Assembly (NCBI RefSeq): GCF_037154015.1
Contig: NZ_JBANRL010000001.1
Coordinates: 1,798,001-1,862,000, forward strand
Length of the DNA: 64,000 bases
Direction of reading: 5' to 3'
Origin: Altererythrobacter aquiaggeris
Lineage (GTDB): Bacteria; Pseudomonadota; Alphaproteobacteria; Sphingomonadales; Sphingomonadaceae
The translations under genes were made by a program, and so were the position numbers. Shown here piece by piece: positions 7,529 to 27,230 of this stretch. The number at the start of each line of letters is the position of its first letter. The stretch's first letter is position 1. The notes under the pieces were generated by a model. It had not been told where the DNA came from, did not search any database, and saw nothing but the letters and a program-made list of their open reading frames with translations.

Positions 7529-8710
7529 TCACTGACGCCAGGGGGCTTCGGATAGCGCCAGTCTGCACGCGATTTCATCACCAATTTCGGTCGCAGCCTC
7601 AAGGAGGGAGGTATCATCCAAGTGTGCATACCGAGCTGTTGTCGAAACCTGCCTGTGGCCAAGGAGGCTTCCAATCATCGGCAAAGTCTCGGATGATCGC
7701 GCTGCCAGGCTGGCATAGTTGTGCCTCAGATCGTGGAGCCTGACGTCATCCAGACCGGCATCACGCCGAAGCTTGCGCCAGAACCAGTCGATCGCTGAAA
7801 CCGACTGCCCCTTGAACGGAAACACTAGCTCATCCTTCTTCCCACGCGGCAATCCATCGAGCACCGCCCTCGCCTCCTGGCCAAGCCAGACGATGCGCGG
7901 ACCTGTCTTGGAATCGGTCAGTTTGAGCTTCCGCCCCTGAACCTCGCCCCAGGTGAGGTTGAGGATTTCGCCGCGTCGGCATCCCGTCAACGTGAGCAGT
8001 GTGACTACCGCCGCCTCGACGGGCTGGTCAGCGCGTCGGTCGACAAGGGCTTTCCCGAGCCGCGCCATCTCGGCGTCGCTCAGAAACCGTTCGATCTTGC
8101 GCCCCCTGTTCTTCTTCACGCCTCGAAAGGGGTTTGAATGCTCCGGAATATAGCCCCAGGCCTCGGCCTTGGCGAACATGGCTTTCAGAATTTCCATGGC
8201 GCGGTTTGCCGCGCCCGGCCCTGCCGAGCGCGTTACCTCCGCGTGCCAGCGCACCGCATCGGCATGATCGATCTCGTCGATGAACTTGCCCGCAAACGCA
8301 TGGTCGAGATGGGTGCGGCGGTAGATGTCCTGGATCTCGCGCGTGGACTTCTTCCAGGTCGGTGCCGCCACATCCCAATACGACTGAAGGAACGCCGCAT
8401 AGGTCGGCGTCTTCGTGCCGCGCTTCTTCTTGTCTGCCGGGTTCTGCCCGAGCTCGATCCGGAGGATCAGCCGGCGGGCAACATCCTTCGCGATGCGCTC
8501 GGTAAGGATGGCGGCATCGCCGATCGTTATCAACCGCTGCTTGCCACCGATGGTCCGCTGGAGGACGTAGCTCTTGCGTCCTGAGCGGTGGATGCGCTCG
8601 CCAAAGCCCGGAAGCACGTAGTCAAACCTCGTCCGGCGCTTCCCAGCCTCTCCCGGAACAACGCGCGCGAGTTCCTCGGCCAGGATATGCTTCAGATCGT
8701 ATCCGGTCAC
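7529..8710 (-). CDS. tyrosine recombinase, second of a coupled pair
   Basis: 393 residues from a GTG at 8710 that overlaps the stop of the upstream recombinase as GTGA. The longer open frame to 9307 is antisense-like noise inside the neighbour. An N-terminal arm-binding region (RSGRKSYVLQRTIGGKQRLI) is followed by a core-binding SAM-like domain and the catalytic domain with TGCRRGEILNLTW (first Arg), DSKTGPR (Lys), HDLRHNYASLA (H..R), LLGHRQVSTTARYAHL (His and nucleophile Tyr). All catalytic residues look intact. It resembles its upstream partner in layout and in the SNPFRGV segment, so the pair probably arose by duplication or acts as a heteromer. Confidence 0.88.
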   Translation of the reverse strand: MTGYDLKHILAEELARVVPGEAGKRRTRFDYVLPGFGERIHRSGRKSYVLQRTIGGKQRLITIGDAAILTERIAKDVARRLILRIELGQNPADKKKRGTKTPTYAAFLQSYWDVAAPTWKKSTREIQDIYRRTHLDHAFAGKFIDEIDHADAVRWHAEVTRSAGPGAANRAMEILKAMFAKAEAWGYIPEHSNPFRGVKKNRGRKIERFLSDAEMARLGKALVDRRADQPVEAAVVTLLTLTGCRRGEILNLTWGEVQGRKLKLTDSKTGPRIVWLGQEARAVLDGLPRGKKDELVFPFKGQSVSAIDWFWRKLRRDAGLDDVRLHDLRHNYASLAARSSETLPMIGSLLGHRQVSTTARYAHLDDTSLLEAATEIGDEIACRLALSEAPWRQ

Positions 8711-9951
8711 GCCGCGATGCCCAGCGCACCGGCGAGGCTCGAACAAATCCGGTCGGCGCTCTCCGAGATGATGTCGTCTGCAAGATGCGCATAGCGCGCG
8801 GTCGTCTCGGGAAGCGCGTGCCCCAACAGCTTGCCGATGGTCGCGAGTGGAATGCCCTTGGCAATGGCCGCTGAGGCAAAGCTGTGGCGAAGATCGTGGA
8901 GCCGGACATCGGGAAGAGCGGCCTTGCGCCTGATCCTGATCCAGTGTTCTCCAAGATTGATTGGTCCCTCCCGATGCAACGCCGGAAAGACAAGCTGGTC
9001 GTCGGCCCGGCGGTCGAGGCCACTCAGAATTTCGATCGCTTGCGGGTTGAGATAAATGGTCTTCGGGCCGGTCTTGCTGTCGGGTAGCGCAAGTCGAGGA
9101 ATCTGGACGTAGCGCCAGCGCAAGGTCGCAATCTCCGAAGCACGTGCACCCGTGTAAACGAGCAAGAGAAGCGCGGGGATCACGAACGGGTTCGCAAACT
9201 CGTGATTGGCCAACGCGCGCCCGAGCCTGCGGTATTCGTCGGCGGAAAGGTAGCGCTCCGGGAGCTCGCGCTTGAAGCGGGACACACCGCGACACGGGTT
9301 GGAGCATTTGGCGCGATACCCGAGCTTTTCCGCATACTGCATCATGACAGACATGATCGGGATGGTGCGATTGAAGCTCCCTTCCCTCTTTGTCATGGTG
9401 TCGCGCCAGCGGTTGATGTCTGACCGTGCGATCATGTCGACCGGAAGTTCGCCGAAATGCGGAATGAGCAGCTGATCGATGCGCGAGCGCGAGCTCGTCC
9501 TGGTCGACGGCTTCCAGTGCGGCGAATAGTCGGTCCAGAATTCCTCGGCGAAGTCGACAAAGAGCGGGACCTTTTTCTGCTCGGGCGCAGACGGCAGGTC
9601 GGCAAGCGTAGCCCTGATGAGCAATCTGCGCGCGGCAGCGCGCGCGGCGGGAGCGCCCAGCGCACCTGCCGCCACTCCCGCGCGTCCCAGCGTCACCATC
9701 CTCTGCACGCCTCGGGGCCTGTACTTCACTATCCAGCTAAGGTGTCCGGACTTGCGCTTGCGCAGTCCGAAGCCAGGCAGTTCATTATCCCATGTAATCC
9801 CGAGCGGAAGTGAGGCTCGACGGGCCACATGACCGGTCAGTTTCAGCTTATTGGATTGGCGTTTGTGGGTGACGGCTGTGCCTTGCCCACCCACAGATTG
9901 CCGGTGGGTTAGAAATTTCGAACTATCTGTTTTTACTAGGTTTTGCTCCAT
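8707..9951 (-). CDS. tyrosine recombinase, first of a coupled pair
   Basis: 414 residues. The N-terminal part holds a DUF4102-like arm domain (WDNELPGFGLRKRKSGHLSWIVKYRPRGVQRM). The catalytic domain has YTGARASEIATL (first Arg), DSKTGPKTIYL (Lys), HDLRHSFASAA (H..R) and LLGHALPETTARYAHL (His and Tyr). The stop overlaps the second recombinase start by 4 bp, so both are made from one message in nearly equal amounts. Some catalytically paired recombinases are needed together for excision and integration; whether these serve the whole island or are the remains of a second element inside it is not settled by the sequence. Confidence 0.88.
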   Translation of the reverse strand: MEQNLVKTDSSKFLTHRQSVGGQGTAVTHKRQSNKLKLTGHVARRASLPLGITWDNELPGFGLRKRKSGHLSWIVKYRPRGVQRMVTLGRAGVAAGALGAPAARAAARRLLIRATLADLPSAPEQKKVPLFVDFAEEFWTDYSPHWKPSTRTSSRSRIDQLLIPHFGELPVDMIARSDINRWRDTMTKREGSFNRTIPIMSVMMQYAEKLGYRAKCSNPCRGVSRFKRELPERYLSADEYRRLGRALANHEFANPFVIPALLLLVYTGARASEIATLRWRYVQIPRLALPDSKTGPKTIYLNPQAIEILSGLDRRADDQLVFPALHREGPINLGEHWIRIRRKAALPDVRLHDLRHSFASAAIAKGIPLATIGKLLGHALPETTARYAHLADDIISESADRICSSLAGALGIAA

Positions 9952-13928: not shown

Positions 13929-14858
13929 TCAGGCTGCATCAGCGAGATTGATGTCGGGCTTGCTTTCGTGGGATTGGCAACCACCCAGTTTGAGCAGCAG
14001 GCTTGCCGCTTCCTCGGCCTTGGCCGCAGCAGTGAGGATCGCGCGCTCGTCCGATTTGAGGATCTTTAGCCAGGAGGCGATGTAGCTGGCATGATGATCG
14101 AGGTGGGTGACCGGAAGACCCAGTTCAGCGCCGAGGATTGCCGACGAAAGTTCGGCGATCAGTTCCTCGGCAGCATAGGCGTCGCTGCCGAAACGGTTCT
14201 TGAGATCGCGACCGAGCCGCGAGGAATGCCCCGTCCAGTGCGACAGTTCATGTGCGAGTGTAGCGTAGTAGTGGTCGTAGGCTTCGAAAAGTTCTGCTGG
14301 CGGCATGGTGACGCGGTCGCGCAGCGGCTCGTAGTAGGCCTGCGCGCCCTGATGGCGCAGGTTGGCGCCCACTTGACCGAAAAAGGCATCGAGCCGGGCT
14401 TCGCGGCCTTCGGGTTCAAGCGCGGCAACGAGTGGCTTGGGATGGTAGAATGCAGCAAGGCCATCGCACTGATCCGCGTTGAACACGGCATAGGCCTTGA
14501 GCACGCGCCGGTTCTCGGTGTCCGCTGCGCCGTCTGCGGTCTCGACCTCCTTGGTGTAGCTCTTGTAGAAGATCGCGATCGTCGATTTTTCGCCCTTGCG
14601 GACCTGTCCGCCGAGCGCCTGACACTGGGGATAGGTCATCCAGTATGGCGAGGCGTAGCCGCAGCCATCGGCCACCATCCATAGCCAGAAGGTATTCATT
14701 CCGCGATAGGGCGTTCCGCAGGAGCGCAAGGGTCGCGAGACTGACACACCGCGCCACTGCTTGACCCAAGGCTTGGTGCCTTCTTCAAGCTTTTCGATAA
14801 TGGCGGCAGTGATGCGCTCAGCTGGCGAGGTCGAAGCAGTGCGGCGATACTTGGTCAT
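13929..14858 (-). CDS. ardC: ArdC-like antirestriction protein (ssDNA-binding plus zincin domain)
   Basis: 309 residues from ATG 14858 with ATCAGGAG 7 bases upstream. The N-terminal ArdC domain reads TAAIIEKLEEGTKPWVKQW, then PYRGMNTFWLWM and YPQCQALGGQVRKGEKST, the marks of ArdC/TraC-primase N-terminal domains that bind single-stranded DNA. The C-terminal part is a metallopeptidase-like domain with YATLAHELSHWTGHSSRL (HExxH zinc site, residues near 220) and AAEELIAELSSAILGAELGL, whose Glu is the likely third ligand. ArdC proteins protect incoming DNA from restriction. It is the first gene of a two-gene unit. Confidence 0.92.
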   Translation of the reverse strand: MTKYRRTASTSPAERITAAIIEKLEEGTKPWVKQWRGVSVSRPLRSCGTPYRGMNTFWLWMVADGCGYASPYWMTYPQCQALGGQVRKGEKSTIAIFYKSYTKEVETADGAADTENRRVLKAYAVFNADQCDGLAAFYHPKPLVAALEPEGREARLDAFFGQVGANLRHQGAQAYYEPLRDRVTMPPAELFEAYDHYYATLAHELSHWTGHSSRLGRDLKNRFGSDAYAAEELIAELSSAILGAELGLPVTHLDHHASYIASWLKILKSDERAILTAAAKAEEAASLLLKLGGCQSHESKPDINLADAA

Positions 14859-14865
14859 GGGAGCT

Positions 14866-14933
14866 CTCCTGATCGCCGGGACGGGCATGCCCCGGCTCAG
14901 GAAGAGCAAAGCTCCCTCCCCTCTCGTTTCCTG
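14866..14933 (-). promoter_or_regulatory. leader of the ArdC gene: polypurine motif, hairpins, ATCAGGAG site
   Basis: On the minus strand, GAGAGGGGAGGGAGC (within 14911-14925) is followed by hairpin GAGC-TTT-GCTC (14904-14914), a GGGCATGCCC palindrome (14883-14892) and ATCAGGAG (14866-14873). The polypurine block and hairpin recur before the ParB-like gene, and weaker versions precede the helicase and Toprim genes. Confidence 0.55.
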
Positions 14934-15319
14934 TTGGCCGCTTGGCGCCCTGTACTCAGCCGTTCGCGTCCACTGGCAATTTCCCCGAAAGCTGCCGCTC
15001 CCTTAGAGTGGCAAATTTGCGCTCTCAACCAAACCCTCGAAACCCTAATGTCGCGCCAACCGTTGCACCGATGGCAGACACGCAGCCAAATTTATCGATA
15101 TCACTTCCGAGTTTGATTGATGCGGGAAATATTTAGGCAAAGTCTGCCAAGGATGTGCGAGCGAATTCCATGCTTATCCCGCCGACTCTACGATACCGAA
15201 CTTTTTCAGACGTCACCCGACTACCCCAAAGCATGGAACCGTAATGGAGAATTTACGTTCATTTGAGTTGAATGGCGCGACCAATAAGGTTGCCACTACG
15301 CAAACATGGGACGTCTGGC
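14934..15319. other. divergent spacer between ArdC and the protease gene
   Basis: It must hold the protease promoter and perhaps part of the ArdC promoter. It becomes A/T-richer from about 15020 onward, matching the protease cassette rather than the island backbone, so the cassette border may lie here. No gene is seen. Confidence 0.4.
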
Positions 15320-16801
15320 ATGAAAATTTTCAAGAGCCTTCTTGTTCTTGGAACTGCACTCGCGGGTCCGAGTCTCCTTGCACAACAACCTCCCGGGCCA
15401 CCGGAGATTCCGGCAGCGGATTCGGCTCCCGTCGAAGTATCCAAGTCTCAAAAGGCACCCGGAGCTGGTTATCTGGCGAAGCGCTTCGGCCTCTCGGAGC
15501 TTGAGGCTAGGCAAAGACTTGCGCTAGACGAAAAGATTACCGAGAGTACTGCTTCTTTTGTAGAGGCGTTCGGCGATGATTTCGTCGGTGTGTTCATCGA
15601 CCATGAGCCGAACTATAGGGTCACTTACGTAATTGCGCGCGATGTACCGGTTGGTGATGCGCAGAAGATGGTGGCGCAGGAATTGCGGCGCTATGTAGCG
15701 GTCAAGCGAAGCAAATATACCGTCAGCGAACTCGATGTACTGAACAGGCGGATTGCCGATACCCTCGCGAATATGAAGTTGCCCGGAACGGTGGGCTATG
15801 ACTTTCGCACAGACAAGTTCGAAATCAGTGCTACCGAAACCGCCGGGCAGAAACTCATGCCCGCACTCCCAACGGATTTAAGATCGGTCGTCCGGTTCGT
15901 TCCGGGAGGTAAGCCTCAAACTGTGCAGACTGGCGCACGATCAGGCGATGTATTTTACGGCGGTTGGCAGTTCTTTCCCGCTCCGGGCACGGGCACCCCG
16001 ACCTGCACGTATGCGTTTTCGATCCGAACGGGCAGCGGGCAGGATGGGATGCTGACCGCTAGCTCGGGGCATTGCCAAGGCAATGCTGCATACAAATATC
16101 CTGACGGACACACCGTGACGCTGGTCACACCTGCGGAGGTTGACCGGTTCGTTTTCAACAATTCGGGTCGATCCTATGATTATCGCCAGGTGCGGACTGG
16201 AACAATTAAGCCTGGTCCATATGTCTGGTTTTGGAACAATCGAGGCGGGAACTATTATCAGAAAACGCTGAGTGGCTGGGAATACAAGAGTTGGGCAAAC
16301 GTAAACCCGAATTATCCGATTGAGGGCGGCTACTCGCAGGTCACCGGAGCGGTGCTTGGGTCTTCGGCTAACACGCAGAATTACAACCATGCCGCCGGTC
16401 AGACACGATGCCTCGGCGGCCAGACCACCGGAATTACCTGTGGCCTTATCACAGCGTCTTCGACCACCGCCGTCGAAGTATTGGACGATGGCTCCACGCG
16501 GCAATACTACGGATACGTGAAAGTCGAGGGTCAGGACTACATGGTCTTGGCAAACGGTGGGGACAGCGGCGGGCCGGCGGTCACCGAACCTGTGTGGAAT
16601 TCGACAGCAGGTTATTATCAGGTGAAGGCGGCGGGGATCGTTCTCATAGGATCCGTGCGCGATCGTGGAGACGGATATGATCGACCTTGTGTCATGCCGG
16701 GCGACCAGAGTTGCCCCGCATATTACATGCCGATTGACCGTATTAACGATCATGCTGCTGGCACGATTCTGACAACGACCGGTGCGGTGGCGGTGAACTG
16801 A
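15320..16801 (+). CDS. secreted chymotrypsin-fold serine protease with pro-region
   Basis: 493 residues from ATG 15320, chosen because it gives a signal peptide (MKIFKSLLVLGTALAGPSLL then AQQ). Residues 24 to about 200 look like an alpha-lytic-protease-type pro-region with ITESTASFVEAFGDDFVGVF and DYDFRTDK-like segments. The catalytic half carries TASSGHCQG (His 251), SYDYRQV (Asp 287) and NGGDSGGPAV (Ser 416), in the correct His-Asp-Ser order for the S1 family. Several Cys (CTYAFS, GHC, TRCLGG, TCGL, PCVMPG, SCPAYY) should form disulfides, so it acts outside the cytoplasm. It shares one base with the next gene, a lipoprotein. Confidence 0.85.
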   Translation: MKIFKSLLVLGTALAGPSLLAQQPPGPPEIPAADSAPVEVSKSQKAPGAGYLAKRFGLSELEARQRLALDEKITESTASFVEAFGDDFVGVFIDHEPNYRVTYVIARDVPVGDAQKMVAQELRRYVAVKRSKYTVSELDVLNRRIADTLANMKLPGTVGYDFRTDKFEISATETAGQKLMPALPTDLRSVVRFVPGGKPQTVQTGARSGDVFYGGWQFFPAPGTGTPTCTYAFSIRTGSGQDGMLTASSGHCQGNAAYKYPDGHTVTLVTPAEVDRFVFNNSGRSYDYRQVRTGTIKPGPYVWFWNNRGGNYYQKTLSGWEYKSWANVNPNYPIEGGYSQVTGAVLGSSANTQNYNHAAGQTRCLGGQTTGITCGLITASSTTAVEVLDDGSTRQYYGYVKVEGQDYMVLANGGDSGGPAVTEPVWNSTAGYYQVKAAGIVLIGSVRDRGDGYDRPCVMPGDQSCPAYYMPIDRINDHAAGTILTTTGAVAVN

Positions 16802-17283
16802 TGACTAAAGGGTTCGCCTCGATTCTGCTGGCCGTATCAGTCGCAGCATGCCAACCAGGTGGGATGGAAGAAAATAGGGTGCTATCCGATCCGGTAGACA
16901 ATCAGATTGTTGAGAACCTGTATGTCGTCGATCCGCCGGAAGGCACTACGTCGGCCGGAATGGGTGGCACTGCTGGCATCTTGCGACTTGACGGCCGCTG
17001 TTTGGTATTGTCGGTCGGTAGCGAGCACTTCACGCCAGTGTTCCGGGGCGGATCAGATCGGCTGGTTGTAGGGAGCGATAGATTGCAGGCATTTGGCCTG
17101 ACCGTGGATTACGGTGAAGATCTCTACTTTCCGAGAGCAACAGCGGGAAGCTTCGTGAATTTACCCGAAGGAAGCAGATGCCCCAAAAACGCGCTGTTCG
17201 TACCAATGATCGAGCGGCCTGACACTGAAAACATTGCTCCCGCGCCACCAACGCCCGCAGGCGCCTTGAAGGGCAAGTCCTGA
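16801..17283 (+). CDS. small lipoprotein coupled to the secreted protease
   Basis: 160 residues. The start overlaps the protease stop by one base (TGATG). A lipoprotein signal ends in VSVAAC, with Cys 17 as the lipid site. The mature part has a compact beta-rich domain (GILRLDGRCLVLSVGSEHFTPVFRGG, then SDRLQAFGLTVDYGEDLYF, then NLPEGSRCPKNALF) with two Cys that could bridge, and ends in a Pro/Ala tail. The pattern is that of small OB- or SH3-like lipoprotein domains, but no family is recognised. Coupling to the protease suggests that it holds, inhibits or guides the enzyme at the membrane; this is inference. Confidence 0.75.
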   Translation: MTKGFASILLAVSVAACQPGGMEENRVLSDPVDNQIVENLYVVDPPEGTTSAGMGGTAGILRLDGRCLVLSVGSEHFTPVFRGGSDRLVVGSDRLQAFGLTVDYGEDLYFPRATAGSFVNLPEGSRCPKNALFVPMIERPDTENIAPAPPTPAGALKGKS

Positions 17284-17404
17284 TCCCGTCGTTCGGACCA
17301 GTTGCTTAACACTAGCGGGCTGACCTGACAGCCGCCCAAGGCAGCTTGCCACTACTTTCTGACAGAACCCGACAAACTACAAACGGTCCAGAATTTGACA
17401 TGGA

Positions 17405-17438
17405 AAAGGCGGCCCATCCCGAGAGGGACGGACCGCCC
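17405..17438 (-). terminator. terminator of the ParB-like gene
   Basis: On the minus strand GGCGGTCCGTCCC pairs with GGGATGGGCCGCC if G-U pairs are allowed, with a TCTC loop, followed by TTTT. It lies 30 bp past the stop of the ParB-like gene. Confidence 0.75.
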
Positions 17439-17467
17439 ACCGAGTGGCATGGACCTGTCAGGAGGGG

Positions 17468-19441
17468 TCAGGCAGCCTGCTCGGCAATTTCACCAGCGGT
17501 GTCTTCGCTGACCGACTCTTCGCCGTCGGCGGCAATCGGTGCGACTTGCTCGGCACCGGCGAAACACATGATCGTCGGAACCCAAGCCAGCGCCCGTTCC
17601 TTGACCTCGGGCTCGCCAATGAAGTTGCCCGAGAAGATGCGTTCGGCAGCGCTCGCAAGCTCAGCCTTCTTCGATGCGGCATAACGACTGACGAGTTCGG
17701 GACCGCCGGCGGCGTCGAGCGCTTCGAGCGTGCGCGCCTTAGCCACCCGGTCGAAGTAGTTGTTCGCCGTGGGACGCCACCAATGCGCGGTCTCGATTTC
17801 GAGGAGCGAGCCGAGTGCCTCGTGCATCGGCACCGATCGTTCGCCTTCGCAGGCAAGGCTGGCAACCAGAGTGCGCGAGACGACATGGCCAAGCCATGCT
17901 GAGCGCGCCTCGTCGGAAAGCGCTCGGAATTTCGCGAACCGCTCGACATCGCTTTCACCCGCACGCCAGCTTTCATCGAGCGACCCGGCGAACTCGGCAA
18001 GCGCGGCACTCGCCGGCGCATCCTTCGCTTCGAACCCGGCGATAGGCCCGGACGCGACCGAGCCAACGAGGGTCGACGCTTTCTTGGCGCGCCAGTCGTG
18101 CCCATCGGCATCGGCGAGCGTGAAGACCATGAAGTCGAGCGCTAGTGCCGGGTCGTTGGCGAGATGGATTGCCAGGATGTCGCGGCGCTGCATTGCGAGT
18201 TCGTCGAGCAGGCGCTGGGAAAGCGAGCTCCCCTTGGGCTTAGCCGCACCGCTCTCTTCAATGGCCTCGACCACGCCTTCGTCAGCGATGACCTCGGTCT
18301 CGGTGTAGAACTGCGGGACCAGGGTCGGCTCGCCATTGCGCGAGAGGACGAGGAAGGCGCCAGCCTCCGGTTTCAGTTCGTCGGCGAGTACCGGCGGCCG
18401 GTCATTGAGCGCGCGCATGGCGCGGTCGATGACGACGAGTTCCTGTTCGGCCTTGGCGACCTCGTCCTCGTCGCTGTCTTCGTCTTCGAGCACGGCGGCG
18501 ACGCGGTCGTAGTCGGCCTCAAGTTCGCCGAGTTCCTGAGCTTGCTGTTCGGTCATCGGCGCAGGGTCGCAAGGCAGACGGCTCAGACCTTCGACGAGGT
18601 CGTGGCTGACGTAGTTGCCAAGGGTCGGGCGCACCCAGGCAAGGCCATATTCGAGCGCGGCCTTTTCTGCGGCTTCTTCCATGGCCTTGTGCGCGAGGTC
18701 TTCGAGCAGCGCGATATCGATCCAGCTCTCGCTGGCATCGTCGTCGAACAGTTCGCGTTCGATCCGGCCACCCGCAGTCAGGTAGGCATCGCGTCCGACG
18801 AGAACCGCTCGCGGATCGGAACCACGCACCGTGGCATCGAGCACCATGCGGCGGATAGTGTCAGGCGTGATTTGGTACCAAGCGTCCTGCAGCTCGGCAT
18901 AGACATGCGCTTGGCGCTCCACGTCGGAGATCGCGCCGTAGGCCTTGGCCATATCGAGCGTGATCGTGCCTTCGGCGAGCGCTTCGAAGACGCAAGGCGC
19001 GAGAGAGGCTAGGCGCAGACGTCCTTCGACGAACCGGACGGTGAGGCCGAAGCGGCGCGCCACGTCTTCGGGGGTAGCCCCTGCCTCGATGACGGAAGCG
19101 AAGGCCTGCGCCTCGTCGGCGGGGTTCATCGCGAGACGCTGGAAGTTTTCGGCAAGGCTGGCCTCGCGCACTTCGCTTTCCTCGCCTTCGATGACGAGGC
19201 AGGTAACCTCGTGGTTTTCGGGCAAGGTGCCCTCTTCGGCCAGCGCCTGCAGCGCGGCGAGACGGCGACCGCCGGCCTCGACCTCGAACTTGCCGCGCTT
19301 ACCTTTGCGCACGACGAGGTTCTGCAGCAGCCCGCGCGCAGCAATGTCTGCCCGCAGCTGGAGGTCGGCCAGCACGTCGCTCGACTTGCGAACGTTGCGC
19401 GGGCTCAGGACGAGCTTCTTCAAGGGAATCGACTGGATCAT
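17468..19441 (-). CDS. large ParB/RepB/Spo0J-family protein
   Basis: 657 residues from ATG 19441, with ATCAGGAG 7 bases upstream. The N-terminal ParB domain has IPLKKLVLSPRNVRK, EAGGRRLAALQAL (the nucleotide-binding GxRR box) and LAENFQRLAMNPADEAQAF (ENxQR motif), then a helix-turn-helix (GATPEDVARRFGLTVRFVEGRLRLASL). The C-terminal 400 residues are acidic and helical with no match to chromosomal ParB. Such long ParB-like proteins are frequent on plasmids and conjugative elements and usually lack a ParA partner, as here; they probably act in establishment or regulation rather than simple partition. Confidence 0.9.
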   Translation of the reverse strand: MIQSIPLKKLVLSPRNVRKSSDVLADLQLRADIAARGLLQNLVVRKGKRGKFEVEAGGRRLAALQALAEEGTLPENHEVTCLVIEGEESEVREASLAENFQRLAMNPADEAQAFASVIEAGATPEDVARRFGLTVRFVEGRLRLASLAPCVFEALAEGTITLDMAKAYGAISDVERQAHVYAELQDAWYQITPDTIRRMVLDATVRGSDPRAVLVGRDAYLTAGGRIERELFDDDASESWIDIALLEDLAHKAMEEAAEKAALEYGLAWVRPTLGNYVSHDLVEGLSRLPCDPAPMTEQQAQELGELEADYDRVAAVLEDEDSDEDEVAKAEQELVVIDRAMRALNDRPPVLADELKPEAGAFLVLSRNGEPTLVPQFYTETEVIADEGVVEAIEESGAAKPKGSSLSQRLLDELAMQRRDILAIHLANDPALALDFMVFTLADADGHDWRAKKASTLVGSVASGPIAGFEAKDAPASAALAEFAGSLDESWRAGESDVERFAKFRALSDEARSAWLGHVVSRTLVASLACEGERSVPMHEALGSLLEIETAHWWRPTANNYFDRVAKARTLEALDAAGGPELVSRYAASKKAELASAAERIFSGNFIGEPEVKERALAWVPTIMCFAGAEQVAPIAADGEESVSEDTAGEIAEQAA

Positions 19442-19448
19442 GGGTGTT

Positions 19449-19523
19449 CTCCTGATGGAATGAAGGCGCAGGTGAGGATCACGAGGCCCACAAGCCCAAA
19501 GGGCTCCCTCCACTCTCATTCCG
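19449..19523 (-). promoter_or_regulatory. leader of the ParB-like gene: polypurine motif, hairpin, ATCAGGAG site
   Basis: On the minus strand, GAGAGTGGAGGGAGCCC (within 19501-19517) runs into hairpin AGCCC-TTT-GGGCT (19493-19505) and then ATCAGGAG (19449-19456), 7 bases before the start. The arrangement copies that of the ArdC leader. Confidence 0.55.
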
Positions 19524-19545: not shown

Positions 19546-22500
19546 TCAGGCGGTAAGCGCGGGGAGAACCGACGAGGCTCTCGGCACCGGGACGAATAGG
19601 CGCGTGCGATAGCGGATGATCTCGGTGAAGCAGCCCTTGTTCTTGTACCAGTCGAGCCGATCCGGCGAGAATCCGGTCAGTTCAAGGCGCTGTTCGCCTC
19701 CGACCAGCGAGCGCTTCACGGTAAGTGGATCATGGCTTGCGAGGCCCAGCGGTTTGCCGCTGGCCAAGACTAGGTCGCCGATCTGCTCTGGTGCCGGACC
19801 GGTGACTCCGGAAAGGCCAAAGGTCTCGGCGATCGCAGCGACATCCATATCGAGCACTTCGCGGCCGATGATCGACTGGCCGTCCTCGGCAACGAGCCGG
19901 GTGACCCGGACATGATCGCCGGGGAAGCGCTTCCAGACCGGAAGCAGAAGTCCGGTAGCGAAATGGACTCGCTCAGTTACCGGTGACTTGGCCGCCTCTT
20001 CTTCCTCAGCCCGCCAGGCGCTGGTGAACGCAGAGACGCCAATTTCCTCCCAGTGGCTCTCAGCGAGTGCCTCAAGCGTCCAGTTCGCGGACTTGAGCGG
20101 TCGCAGCAGGCGTCGGCGTTCGATCACGGCCCCGTCGTCGGCGATGAGGCGACGGGCGGGAACCGACAGCGCGACCTTGCCCGAACGCGCATTGCGCACC
20201 GGCATCGCGTGCAGGCTTCCAATCTCGTGCAGGCGTACGAGGCGCTGCAGGCGTATGGGCCGAAGGTGCCTCGTCACTTCGAGCGAGACGAGGCGGGTCT
20301 CGGCTCCGGTCACGGGGTCGGTGCGCAGGAGTTCATCTGCCAGGACCTTAAAGTGATCGACTCTGACGGTTTCCAGTCCCTGGTCAAGCGTTCCAGCCTC
20401 ACGCGCGGCTTCAATCCGCGCTTCGACGAGGCCGAGATATTCATCGAATATGGCGTTCTGGAGCGCAATCGGCAGCGCGAGGATGCGATTGAGCCAGCGC
20501 TGGATCGTGGGGAGATTGTCGGTCAGCCCGCCATCGGGGTTTTCGAGCCGGAGGCCGGTGCGCTCGACGAAGTTGCCAAAGGTGGTGGCTTCAAGCTTGC
20601 CGTCATAGAGCAGCTGGAACCAGCGGCTGAGCGCGTCGCGCGCATAGTCGCTTTCAAGATTGTCTGCCGGGTCGAACAGGTTCTGTCCGCCCGTCTGGCG
20701 CTGGCCGCGCGTCAGCGCGCCCAAAGCGTCGAGCCTTCGCGCAATAGTCGAGATGAACCGGCGCTCGCCCTTCACATCTGTGGTGACCGGGCGGAACAGC
20801 GGGGCCGAGGCCTGATTGGTGCGGTTCGTGCGACCAAGACCCTGGATCGCGTTGTCGGCGCGCCATCCCGGTTCAAGCAGGAAGTGAACCCGGCGCTGCT
20901 GGTTCCTGGCGCCCAAGTCGGCATGATAGGAACGCCCCGTGCCGCCCGCATCCGAAAAGACCAGGATGCGCTTGGTGCCTTCCATGAAGCTTTGTGCTTC
21001 GGCGACATTGGCCTTGGGGCTACGCCGTTCGAGGCGTTGCTGACCATCGCGGCCCAGGATCAGCCTGCGGGTACGGCCCGTGACCTCGGCAACGGCCTCA
21101 GTCCCGAAATGCTCAATGATCGCGTCGAGCGCGGTGGCAATCGGCGGCAACGCACAGAGTTGCTCGATCAACGCATCGCGCGCGGCCATAGCGCGTGAGC
21201 AGAAAACGGGATTGCCCTCCTCGTCGCTCATCGCCTCAGAGCGAAGATTGCCGTCCTCGTCGGTGAAGACCTGCATCAATCGCACCGGGAAACTCTTGGT
21301 GAGGTAGTCGATGACGTATTCACGCGGGGACAGATCGATATCGAGCGCTTCGCGTTCTTCGTCGGTGAGGTCGGCGAGACGCCGGTCGAGCATGGCCTCG
21401 GCGGTCGAGACCAGCTGCACCACCACCGAATGGTCTTCGCCAAGCGCTGCTTCCATCGCGGGGATCAGGCTCGGCAGTTTCATTGAGAGCAGGAGCTGGG
21501 CAAAGAAGCGCTGCTTGGTGCCCTCGAAAATCGACAGCGCTGCCGCCTTGGCATTGCGATTGAGCGTATCGCCGCTGTCCTCGTCGACCACTCGGGTTGC
21601 TTCGAGCGCAGCTTCGAGGTTGCGGTGAATGATCGCCCAGGCATCAGCATAGGCATCATAGATTTTTATCTGTGATTCCGTCAGGCTGTGTTCGAGGATC
21701 TCGTACTCGACCCCGGCAAAGGACAGCGCGCGAGCGAGATAGAGGCCCTGCGCCTTGAGGTCGCGGGCGACAAGCTCCATCGCTGCCACGCCGCCAGCGC
21801 GGATCTCGGTCATGAACGCCTCGTGGGTTGGGAAAGCGGTCTCGGGTCCCCACAGGCCAAGCCGGGAGGTGTAACCGAGGTTAGCGATATCCGAGGCGCC
21901 GGTGGCCGAAGCATAGAGCACCCGGGAGCGCGGCAAATGGTTCTGCAGCCTGAGGCCCGCCATCCCTTGTTCGGAGCCCTTGACCTTGCCGCGGGCTGAA
22001 GATCCCCCGAGCGCATTGGCCATGGCGTGGGCTTCGTCGAAGGCAATCACGCCGTCGAAATCCTCGCCCGCCCAGGCAAGGATCTGGTCGAGCCGAGTGT
22101 CTTCGGCGCGCCCCGAGCGCAGCGTCGGATAGGTGACGAAGAGGATGCCTTCGGACATCGTTACGGGATGGCCGAGTTTCCATCGTGAGAGTGGCTGGAT
22201 GTCGAGCGGCAGCCCGCCGAGTGCTTCCCAGTCGCGGCGTGCATCTTCGAGCAGCGCCTCGTTCTTGGTGATCCAGACGTGCCGACGCTCGCCTGCGAGC
22301 CAGCGGTCCATGATGACCGCTGCGATCTGCCTTCCTTTGCCCGCTCCGGTTCCGTCCCCGAGAAAGAAACCTTGGCGGTAGGCGTGCCCGTCTTCTGCCA
22401 GTTCCAGCGACGTGCCTTCCTGGCTGACCTTGAACTGGCCCGGCAGGTCGCGCGCAAATGCCTGCGCTGCATAGACCAGTGTCTCGCATTGGGCTTCGGA

Positions 22501-23793
22501 CAAGAGACTATCGGCCTGCCAGCCTGCGGGAAGGCGCGGGTTAACCTCCGGCTGGGGCGCCGCGACCGAACCCATGGCGACCGATTCCACGAGCGGCGTG
22601 GGGTGAACCGGCGCGCTTTCGAAAGCGATGCGGCTTGGCCGGTAAGGTAGGTAGATGCCTGTCTGTTCAGGCACCGGTGCGGGTTCGGCGAGGACCGAAT
22701 AGGCAAGGTCGATCGCATTCGCTGTGGCAGCTGGTGTCGACGAGAACGGCGCTGCCGGCCTGACTGGCGCCCGATGGGTCGACGTCTTGCCCCCGAGGCG
22801 CACTGGCTTGCGGACTGGGGTGCGGTGAATGTTGGCAGAGGTCCTTACGCGTGGAGGAAGCGCGGTGACAAGCTCGTAGAGCTCGATCAGATCGCAGATA
22901 TCTCCGGTGATTGCGGCCGATGACGCAGTCGGCACCTTGTCGACCACGACCAGGCGAACGGCGATCCCCGTCCCTGTCCGGCGAAACATCCGCTGCAGCC
23001 GGACATCGAGGAGCAACGACGCTTCGTCCTGAGCCTTGGCGAAAGTGGAGGCATCGAAGCCATCGGGCATGATCGCGACAATCCTCGCCCCAGCGGCAGC
23101 GGCCCGGATTGCACTGCGCAGATGGCGCTGCGCCGTCTCACCGTCCTTGCCACGTTCCTGGCTGCGGGCGAACGGCGGGTTCATCAGCACGGTCGACGGA
23201 ACAGGGCCGCGAAGCAGGTCGGAAATCAATTCCCCGTCATGCGCAGTGACCTTGGCCGAAGGGAAGACGTGGGCCAAGGCGTCTCGTCTTGCCGGATCGA
23301 TCTCGTTGAGGACCAACGAAGCGTTCTGGACACTGCCCCATACCGCAAGCGCACCATTGCCGGCGGATGGTTCGAGAAGCGTGTCTTGCGCAGCAACTGC
23401 TGCGGCCTTCGCCATCAGGCAGGCCAGCATTGGCGGGGTCGAGAACTGCTGTAGCTCGCCCTGTGTTTCGCTGCGCACGTGCCGCGGCGGCAAGGCTGCT
23501 TCGAGCCAGTCGAACCGCGCCTCTGCTTCGTGCACGCTTGTCGCCAGATCGATGCGTGAAGATTCCCGTAGCCACAGCATTGCGCCGATCTCGACCGCGT
23601 TGTTGTAGTCATCGATGGTCCAGGCGCTTCCCCAGTCCAGGACGCCGGTCTCATCGGCGAACAGCCCGGAAATGTCGGTACGGGTAAGGTGACGACCCGA
23701 AGCAAGAAGCGCGGCAACTCTGGCGCCAACAGCGAAAGCCAACGGCACTGTCGGCAACTGCTCGCCGGCGGGAAACAGGTCTGATTGAAACAT
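19546..23793 (-). CDS. strawberry-notch-type helicase with N-terminal methylase-like domain
   Basis: 1415 residues from ATG 23793. The N-terminal 350 residues look like a Rossmann methyltransferase: LLEPSAGNGALAVWGS (SAM motif I) and LMNPPFARSQERGKDGE near residue 205 (catalytic NPPF). The middle is a superfamily 2 helicase of the strawberry-notch group: GDGTGAGKGRQIAAVI near residue 478 (Walker A), FVTYPTLRSG and AFDEAHAMAN near residue 584 (DEAH box). The C-terminal half has RVHFLLEPGWRADNAIQGLG and RTNRTNQ (motif VI). Such proteins are carried on plasmids and phages; a role in DNA modification or protection on entry is plausible but not proven. Confidence 0.9.
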   Translation of the reverse strand: MFQSDLFPAGEQLPTVPLAFAVGARVAALLASGRHLTRTDISGLFADETGVLDWGSAWTIDDYNNAVEIGAMLWLRESSRIDLATSVHEAEARFDWLEAALPPRHVRSETQGELQQFSTPPMLACLMAKAAAVAAQDTLLEPSAGNGALAVWGSVQNASLVLNEIDPARRDALAHVFPSAKVTAHDGELISDLLRGPVPSTVLMNPPFARSQERGKDGETAQRHLRSAIRAAAAGARIVAIMPDGFDASTFAKAQDEASLLLDVRLQRMFRRTGTGIAVRLVVVDKVPTASSAAITGDICDLIELYELVTALPPRVRTSANIHRTPVRKPVRLGGKTSTHRAPVRPAAPFSSTPAATANAIDLAYSVLAEPAPVPEQTGIYLPYRPSRIAFESAPVHPTPLVESVAMGSVAAPQPEVNPRLPAGWQADSLLSEAQCETLVYAAQAFARDLPGQFKVSQEGTSLELAEDGHAYRQGFFLGDGTGAGKGRQIAAVIMDRWLAGERRHVWITKNEALLEDARRDWEALGGLPLDIQPLSRWKLGHPVTMSEGILFVTYPTLRSGRAEDTRLDQILAWAGEDFDGVIAFDEAHAMANALGGSSARGKVKGSEQGMAGLRLQNHLPRSRVLYASATGASDIANLGYTSRLGLWGPETAFPTHEAFMTEIRAGGVAAMELVARDLKAQGLYLARALSFAGVEYEILEHSLTESQIKIYDAYADAWAIIHRNLEAALEATRVVDEDSGDTLNRNAKAAALSIFEGTKQRFFAQLLLSMKLPSLIPAMEAALGEDHSVVVQLVSTAEAMLDRRLADLTDEEREALDIDLSPREYVIDYLTKSFPVRLMQVFTDEDGNLRSEAMSDEEGNPVFCSRAMAARDALIEQLCALPPIATALDAIIEHFGTEAVAEVTGRTRRLILGRDGQQRLERRSPKANVAEAQSFMEGTKRILVFSDAGGTGRSYHADLGARNQQRRVHFLLEPGWRADNAIQGLGRTNRTNQASAPLFRPVTTDVKGERRFISTIARRLDALGALTRGQRQTGGQNLFDPADNLESDYARDALSRWFQLLYDGKLEATTFGNFVERTGLRLENPDGGLTDNLPTIQRWLNRILALPIALQNAIFDEYLGLVEARIEAAREAGTLDQGLETVRVDHFKVLADELLRTDPVTGAETRLVSLEVTRHLRPIRLQRLVRLHEIGSLHAMPVRNARSGKVALSVPARRLIADDGAVIERRRLLRPLKSANWTLEALAESHWEEIGVSAFTSAWRAEEEEAAKSPVTERVHFATGLLLPVWKRFPGDHVRVTRLVAEDGQSIIGREVLDMDVAAIAETFGLSGVTGPAPEQIGDLVLASGKPLGLASHDPLTVKRSLVGGEQRLELTGFSPDRLDWYKNKGCFTEIIRYRTRLFVPVPRASSVLPALTA

Positions 23794-23804
23794 GGCAATT
23801 CGTC

Positions 23805-23874
23805 CTCCTGATGGGGGCATCGGGACACGCCCTCTGCCGGATCAAGAAATCGAGAAGCCATCTCTCCTCTAACG
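23805..23874 (-). promoter_or_regulatory. leader of the strawberry-notch gene
   Basis: On the minus strand, AGAGGAGAGATGG with hairpin GAGA-TGGCT-TCTC (23852-23864) precedes ATCAGGAG (23805-23812), here 11 bases from the start. The upstream end overlaps the last codons of the Toprim gene. Confidence 0.45.
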
Positions 23875-25721: not shown

Positions 25722-26975
25722 TCAAGCGGCTCTCAAAACAGCAATGTTTTGCGCTTTGCCGCCGATGGAATCGAGGAAGTCTGCCCAATCCTGCAGCATT
25801 GCACGACGGGGAGCGAGATATTCGGCAGCATTGTATGCCCCGCGAACCTCGTTCTCTTCGCTGTGTGCCAATTGCAGTTCGACCCAGTCTTCATGATATC
25901 TGCGGATCCACATCGGTGGTTCGCCGACCTCGACCAGCTGCTCATTCGCCCAGGTGCTCGCCAGACCCCTGAAGCCGTGAACAGTTTGTCGCCCGTGGTA
26001 ACCGAGGCGATAGAGGCCATAGATCATCGTATTCTCGGAAAGCGGCATCTTGGGCTTCTGGCCTGGAAAGACGTATTCGCCTTCGGACTTGCTGATCATA
26101 TCTTGAGCAAGAGAAGCGGCTTGTCGCGACAAAGGCACGATATGCTCGCGGCCCATTTTCATCCGATCAGCGCCAATGCGCCAAACTGGTAAATCTCCGA
26201 CTAGACCTTCAAACTCGTGCTTCTTGGCGAACCGGAGTTCCTTGGTCCGGACCCATGTAAGAAGAGCAAAGGTCAATGCCGCCCGCGTAATTTCGGATCG
26301 TCTCTCACCCTCTTCCTGGTATCGCTCCATCTTGATGATGAGTTCGGGTAGCTGTGCCAGAGGTAGCTTCGCCATATGCTTGACCCGAGGACGTGGCTTC
26401 AAAGCCCCCCGAAGATGCGCCGTTGGATCGGAATCGCAAAGTCCGCTGGCAATCGCGAACTGGAATACCTGACCAATGCATTGCTTGGCCCGTCGACTGA
26501 TGTCGAGCGCGCCGCGCTCCTCGATCTTCCGAATGACCTTCAGGACTTCTGGTGGAGTTATCTCATGCATCATGAGCTCGCCTAAGACAGGAAGCACGTC
26601 CTGCTCCATCCGCGACCACACGCGCTTCGCATGGGCGGGATTGAGACTACTTACTCTGTTCTCATGCCACATGGTGGCAATCGCCCTGAAGGTCTTAGCC
26701 TCTTCGAAGTCCCGACCCGTTTTGTGAACCATCGGGTCCCTGCCTTCGGCCAGCACACCCTTGGCAGCTCTCTTGAGTTCTCTTGCGGCCGCTATTCCGA
26801 CTTCGGGGTAGGCACCGAAAGAAAGCAGCTTCTCCTTCCCGTGGTACCGGTATTTCAGCCGCCAGAGCTTCGAGCCGTTCTTTTGCACCAGGAGGAATAA
26901 CCCCTCCCCATCCGCAAGCTTGTATGGACGCTCAGCCGCCTTCGCTTTTTTGATCTGAATCTCACTCAAGGCCAT
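25722..26975 (-). CDS. P4-type tyrosine integrase at the tRNA end of the island
   Basis: 417 residues. The N-terminal DUF4102 arm domain is typical: MALSEIQIKKAKAAERPYKL, ADGEGLFLLVQKNGSKLWRL, KYRYHGKEKLLSFGAYPEV. The catalytic domain carries LLTWVRTKELRFAK (first Arg), HGFRGLASTWANE (H..R) and AHSEENEVRGAYNAAEYL (His and nucleophile Tyr). P4-type integrases insert elements into the 3' end of tRNA genes, and here the tRNA-Met 3' end lies 178 bp upstream of the start. The gene points away from the tRNA, into the island. Catalytic residues look intact, so the enzyme is probably active. Confidence 0.94.
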   Translation of the reverse strand: MALSEIQIKKAKAAERPYKLADGEGLFLLVQKNGSKLWRLKYRYHGKEKLLSFGAYPEVGIAAARELKRAAKGVLAEGRDPMVHKTGRDFEEAKTFRAIATMWHENRVSSLNPAHAKRVWSRMEQDVLPVLGELMMHEITPPEVLKVIRKIEERGALDISRRAKQCIGQVFQFAIASGLCDSDPTAHLRGALKPRPRVKHMAKLPLAQLPELIIKMERYQEEGERRSEITRAALTFALLTWVRTKELRFAKKHEFEGLVGDLPVWRIGADRMKMGREHIVPLSRQAASLAQDMISKSEGEYVFPGQKPKMPLSENTMIYGLYRLGYHGRQTVHGFRGLASTWANEQLVEVGEPPMWIRRYHEDWVELQLAHSEENEVRGAYNAAEYLAPRRAMLQDWADFLDSIGGKAQNIAVLRAA

Positions 26976-27136: not shown

Positions 27137-27153
27137 CCATGCGGATTCGAGAT

Positions 27154-27230
27154 TGGTAGCGGAGGAGGGACTTGAACCCCCGACACGCGGATTATGATTC
27201 CGCTGCTCTAACCAGCTGAGCTACTCCGCC
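27154..27230 (-). tRNA. tRNA-Met (anticodon CAT), elongator type
   Basis: 77 bases on the minus strand including an encoded CCA. Acceptor stem GGCGGAG pairs with CTCCGCT (one G-U), D arm GCTC/GAGC, anticodon stem GCGGA/TCCGC with loop ATCATAA (anticodon CAT), and T arm GGGGG-TTCAAGT-CCCTC. The presence of CCA and the arm lengths fit elongator tRNA-Met of alphaproteobacteria. Its 3' end is the likely attachment site of the island. Confidence 0.95.

Follow-up and report, generated by a model that had tools for sequence, protein, structure and literature searches.

A predicted alpha-lytic-type serine protease and its conserved lipoprotein partner, a candidate inhibitor, carried as island cargo in Altererythrobacter aquiaggeris

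Results

The gene pair

We analyzed a 64,000-nucleotide stretch of the Altererythrobacter aquiaggeris genome (the window), which is part of a chromosome-sized contig. Two adjoining genes on its plus strand encode a putative exported protease and a lipoprotein. In window coordinates, the pair comprises the following features.

15320..16801, plus strand: protease gene, predicted alpha-lytic-protease-type S1 serine protease, 493 aa
15320..15382, plus strand: Sec signal peptide MKIFKSLLVLGTALAGPSLLA, assigned by eye
15461..15934, plus strand: pro region, residues about 48-205, placed by the fold match of the model
15953..16759, plus strand: catalytic domain, residues about 212-480, placed by profile similarity and invariant cysteines
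16070..16072, plus strand: predicted catalytic His251, invariant
16178..16180, plus strand: predicted catalytic Asp287, invariant
16565..16567, plus strand: predicted catalytic Ser416 (GDSGGP), invariant
16799..16803, plus strand: TGATG, overlap of protease stop and lipoprotein start, 1 base common to both
16801..17283, plus strand: partner lipoprotein gene, 160 aa, new family
16849..16851, plus strand: lipobox Cys17 (SVAAC), invariant Cys in the family

The stop codon (16799-16801) and the start codon (16801-16803) meet in TGATG, where the A of TGA is also the A of ATG. A first-pass annotation of this DNA had noted the one-base overlap, both open reading frames and their strand, and the sequence bears these out. 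The same is true of its remarks that the pair runs opposite to the flanking ArdC and ParB-like genes and is richer in A/T than its neighbors, with a G+C content of 55.9% over the pair compared with 63.1% in the left and 63.8% in the right flank. An in-frame ATG is also present at 15272 while only the start at 15320 leaves the signal peptide N-terminal. Promoter and terminator scans yielded no signal above chance.

The signal peptide, pro-region and His251-Asp287-Ser416 order of an S1 protease, likewise read from the sequence at first pass, were confirmed, with H251, D287 and S416 being invariant among 11 relatives (alignment of 11 sequences) and arranged in chymotrypsin order with GDSGGP. Further, C229, C252, C364 and C374 were invariant in the same 11 sequences. 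Searches of Pfam, PADLOC and PHROGs returned no match for either window protein, NCBIfam gave only an irrelevant chance match for the protease and none for the lipoprotein, and a single-sequence PDB search with the window protease found no protease. Using a profile built from eight relatives, the 22 best matches were all bacterial proteases of the alpha-lytic/streptogrisin type (best E 3.6e-13), ranking above ordinary trypsins. The AlphaFold model of the protease was poor overall, and only its pro region (pLDDT about 60) could be used; the top six PDB matches of this region in Foldseek were all alpha-lytic pro regions (2pro/3pro/4pro; best E 4e-4, probability 1.00). Based on sequence, we assign the window protein to the alpha-lytic protease/streptogrisin-type S1 serine proteases, with catalysis predicted. 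It shares with them the triad, GDSGGP, a CxSGxTTGxxCG-type motif and the pro-region fold while differing in its partner lipoprotein, in lying below Pfam detection and in its longer His-to-Ser loops. Besides its part in folding, the alpha-lytic pro region is a tight inhibitor of its own protease. Its role as a foldase (steric chaperone) is described in PMC3352829.

In case of the lipoprotein, an alignment of ten sequences, chosen from positions adjoining protease genes, showed C17, G59, C67, G116 and C127 to be invariant, with family members sharing about 17-23% identity with the window protein. The earlier description as a two-cysteine lipoprotein is correct only beyond the anchor (Cys67 and Cys127), as there are three cysteines when the lipobox Cys17 is included. 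The lipobox +2 residue of the window lipoprotein is Gln, not Asp, which makes anchoring in the outer membrane probable. No relative was found in Pfam, NCBIfam or the PDB, and an AlphaFold model based on seven sequences reached a pLDDT of 37, too low for comparison with a TIMP-like fold. Lone lipoproteins of the family exist directly downstream of dnaA (L105:3431-3859) and at L099:3799-4254. The family extends beyond the protease and is not tied to proteases everywhere.

Insertion in a mobile island

The following island features surround the pair.

13929..14909, minus strand: ArdC (PF08401/PF18818), island backbone, from Pfam
14910..17467, no strand: cargo insert flanked by ArdC and the ParB-like gene, relative to empty sites in four plasmids
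17468..19519, minus strand: ParB-like gene (PF17762/PF02195), island backbone, from Pfam
19546..23820, minus strand: strawberry-notch-type helicase, island backbone
25722..26975, minus strand: tyrosine integrase adjoining tRNA-Met
27154..27230, minus strand: tRNA-Met, taken as right island edge

Homology to two sister genomes ends at 27149-27153, the tRNA end, and we therefore took tRNA-Met as the right edge of the island. In four sphingomonad plasmids, the helicase-ParB-ArdC order is kept and ParB and ArdC are 137-142 bp apart with nothing between them. These empty sites mark the pair as inserted cargo and bear out the two-gene cassette proposed at first pass. The proposed location in a conjugative leading region is not supported, since no relaxase or T4SS gene was seen among the island ORFs examined. 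The island adjoins tRNA-Met and has three integrase genes. Two of the latter, overlapping tyrosine integrase genes at 7529-9951 of the window, suggest a second or composite island edge. The tRNA-Met end does not recur within the window or in the 13 kb upstream of it. Loci in G009 and G249, considered as sharing the helicase backbone of the window, were ruled out as their large ORFs encode RpoB and TamB.

Relatives of the pair occupy varied locations. On sphingomonad plasmids they lie near a toxin-antitoxin pair, and in the pDC01 copy protease and lipoprotein are split by insertion elements. A search of a viral collection with a single relative identified two virus-labelled contigs in which the pair is found close to an endolysin gene, while no match was found in phage records. 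In the virus-labelled L118:1914-7433, a PAAR-motif gene, lipoproteins, the protease and two more family lipoproteins are located near a GH108 endolysin. Other relatives are chromosomal, for example on a contig adjoining rpoB.

Recurrence of the pair

Both families occur together in 11 further independent loci besides the window, the hosts being sphingomonad genomes, plasmids and virus-labelled contigs. The first relatives were found by protease searches alone, and the lipoproteins were then noticed alongside. Among these early loci, an adjoining lipoprotein of one kind was present in L005 (two copies), L006, L007, L008, L010, L018 and L021, with the genes in most cases overlapping by 1 or 4 bp or separated by a gap of about 9 bp. 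For loci with placeable starts, intergenic spacing ranged from about -23 to +9 bp. The lipoprotein precedes the protease in L005, L006, L007, L008, L010, L118 and L140 and follows it in the window, L018, L021, L109 and L110. Two copies precede the protease in L005, whereas in L118 one copy precedes and two follow it. This independent adjacency in both orders and with tight spacing indicates that making both proteins matters, not their order. Chance co-travel of genes with no common function could be argued from the wider distribution of the lipoprotein family, but is very unlikely given the same adjacency and few-base spacing in unrelated genomic places. It is further contradicted by the pair being re-found with proteases that had no part in building the lipoprotein profile (G167, G131, G040 and the two virus-labelled contigs).

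The co-occurrence search suggested at first pass was carried out on a tree of 36 proteases. Pairing was found in 12 of the 15 members of one well-supported clade, which is centered on the window protease because candidates were initially picked by similarity to it, and in 0 of the 21 members of the sister clade; the pDC01 copy was scored as paired despite the insertion elements now between its genes. The partner trait required 3 label changes on the tree compared with about 10 expected, and none of 500 shuffles gave a value as low. The three partnerless clade members are a Methylobacterium plasmid copy; G675, a relative from outside the family that carries a C-terminal extension; and a long-branch Streptomyces copy. 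Protease and lipoprotein distances were correlated across 12 pairs (Mantel r 0.43, p 0.005), a result reflecting co-inheritance as much as interaction, with lipoprotein distances near saturation. Taken as a whole, a specific and conserved protease-lipoprotein partnership is well supported.

In three loci, a broken protease is accompanied by an intact lipoprotein: L018, L159 (S. paucimobilis, IS5) and L033 (pDC01). The reverse, an intact protease with a broken lipoprotein, was not encountered among the loci seen, although the number of cases is small and damage has a three times larger target in the protease.

Several other loci were considered. The gene following the Methylobacterium plasmid protease (L036) was tested as a stand-alone pro region, which was not supported. 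At L117:6140-6595 (G249), a different-looking lipoprotein, META-like by eye and perhaps another partner type, closely precedes a protease that is interrupted by TAG and located at a contig end. A 6.3-kb contig in a Verrucomicrobiales MAG (L003) is nearly identical to the cassette region of the window and is probably a mis-binned fragment of the same or a near strain, not an independent case. L004, from the same scan of genome contigs, was an unrelated chance match.

A serpin operon in the same genome

A tight operon elsewhere in the same genome (L120:5836-11191; G000:C1, about 395.8-401.2 kb) encodes a serpin (PF00079, E 2.8e-83) along with an exported protein of 787 aa. The N-terminus of the latter is homologous to the window protease pro region (HHalign 98%, E 2.5e-13), and is followed by a domain weakly similar to the lipoprotein (64%, E 6.5e-5), a similarity that is suggestive only. 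Neither a protease domain nor a Pfam name could be assigned to the 787-788 aa protein. A similar operon is present in G194 (L103:640-7571), where the large protein has 787-788 aa and the serpin is a lipoprotein judging by its lipobox. This arrangement looks like a chromosomal anti-protease operon, and would place pro-region-like and lipoprotein-like domain types in a protease-inhibitor setting.

Discussion

Our preferred interpretation, to which we assign a probability of roughly 50%, is that the lipoprotein, lipid-anchored in the periplasm, inhibits the adjoining protease and so acts as an immunity protein. What the sequences show directly is the family to which the protease belongs, its catalytic residues and pro-region fold, the lipobox, the conserved adjacency and the cargo insertion. 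The protease would be exported by Sec as a zymogen whose pro region, by analogy with alpha-lytic protease, would fold and block it, with maturation presumably taking place outside the inner membrane. The lipoprotein would face the periplasm from its lipid anchor, which is probably in the outer membrane, and its domain, probably disulfide-bonded, could bind and inhibit protease that matures early or diffuses back. Cells that carry the pair, and sister cells whose lipoprotein is identical or related, would then survive a protease that may cut envelope or competitor proteins. Of anchoring, inhibition and activation, among which the first pass did not choose, we favor inhibition because the pro region likely already serves as foldase, because the sister clade has the same pro region and does without a lipoprotein, and because three loci keep the lipoprotein beside a broken protease with none showing the reverse. 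Further, the partner is duplicated on both sides of the protease, and the extra copies in L118 and L005 resemble the co-transcribed bfi1A-bfp1-bfi1B layout of Bacteroides (PMC2873492). The serpin operon in the same genome is a further pointer in this direction.

In Bacteroides fragilis, Bfp C10 proteases pair with staphostatin-like Bfi inhibitors, small and mostly lipoproteins, whose genes directly flank that of the exported protease on either side or on both and are co-transcribed with it (PMC2873492, PMC3462683). Two of the Bfp protease genes are carried on a conjugative-transposon-like element and a prophage (PMC2873492, PMC3462683). The window pair resembles this system in the lipoprotein gene lying directly beside the protease gene, on either side, and in mobile-element carriage. 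However, Bfp is a cysteine protease of another fold and itself a lipoprotein whereas the window protease belongs to the S1 serine type, and Bfi proteins resemble staphostatins while the window lipoprotein is without a recognized relative, so that the likeness is one in the way of working only. A more distant comparison is Inh/AprI, a small periplasmic inhibitor of serralysins that is also encoded beside a secreted protease but is soluble and acts on a metalloprotease exported by type I secretion (PMC3034196).

Alternatively, the lipoprotein could help the protease to fold or to be secreted, as a membrane-tethered chaperone or foldase comparable to CpaB for CpaA or Lif for lipase. Tight gene coupling would fit this role, as would the precedent of membrane-tethered periplasmic partners encoded beside secreted enzymes: CpaB is encoded beside CpaA and is required for its secretion (PMC4713064), and Lif acts as a steric chaperone, as pro regions do (PMC3352829). 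We nevertheless regard a chaperone as unlikely, and less likely than an inhibitor. The window protease has its own alpha-lytic-type pro region, a sister clade of identical architecture lacks the lipoprotein, and partner copies on both sides would be odd for a chaperone. CpaB is anchored by a transmembrane helix, not a lipobox, and serves a T2SS substrate. The absence of a GspF match in the host speaks against a T2SS chaperone; all GspD matches were below cut-off, one of them in a cluster that is Tad-pilus-like by eye.

A third explanation, which appears quite unlikely, is that the lipoprotein acts as a substrate, docking site or co-factor that is either cleaved and released or holds the protease at the surface. 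The model here is Mtz-Tim of Listeria, in which a secreted protease linked to a mobile element of phage type adjoins a lipoprotein with a proposed inhibitor-like (TIMP-like) fold and is reported to cleave it, with the effect needing both proteins (PMC8235301). The proximity of the pair to an endolysin gene on two virus-labelled contigs would be in line with such a role. However, Mtz is a metzincin metalloprotease of a Gram-positive host and thus of a different protease family, and the three intact lipoproteins beside broken proteases would be left unexplained. The first-pass statement that no described system has this form was too strong, as Bfp-Bfi (PMC2873492, PMC3462683) and Mtz-Tim (PMC8235301) share it with other protease families. 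A lipoprotein partner of an alpha-lytic-type serine protease was not found described in the open-access literature.

As a special case of inhibition, the protease might be an interbacterial weapon that hits competitors; the lipoprotein would then be its immunity protein, and counter-defense would come from lone lipoproteins together with the serpin operon. Mobile locations and duplicated and lone lipoproteins are compatible with this idea, as is a PAAR gene in L118, located four genes upstream of the protease. Its probability is lower still, given that a PAAR gene was seen near L118 only, that PADLOC gives no match and that the Sec signal peptide assigned by eye sets the protease apart from typical T6SS effector-immunity cargo. 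More broadly, one might imagine a previously undescribed Gram-negative mobile antagonism module in which alpha-lytic-type proteases would be diffusible anti-competitor weapons, cysteine-containing lipoprotein inhibitors would act as cognate and lone immunity, and the chromosomal serpin and pro-region-like operon would provide counter-defense in the same genomes. We consider this scenario a rather doubtful one.

In conclusion, co-encoded lipoprotein partners of proteases on mobile elements were known for C10 cysteine proteases and a metzincin, and the pair described here adds a predicted alpha-lytic-type serine protease with an undescribed partner family. The partnership provides a first linked function for a lipoprotein family without a Pfam or NCBIfam match. 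If the lipoprotein indeed inhibits, a protease paired with an inhibitor on a lipid anchor would be a design that recurs on mobile DNA, reached separately for cysteine and serine proteases and perhaps for a metalloprotease, and the family would represent a new source of serine protease inhibitors.
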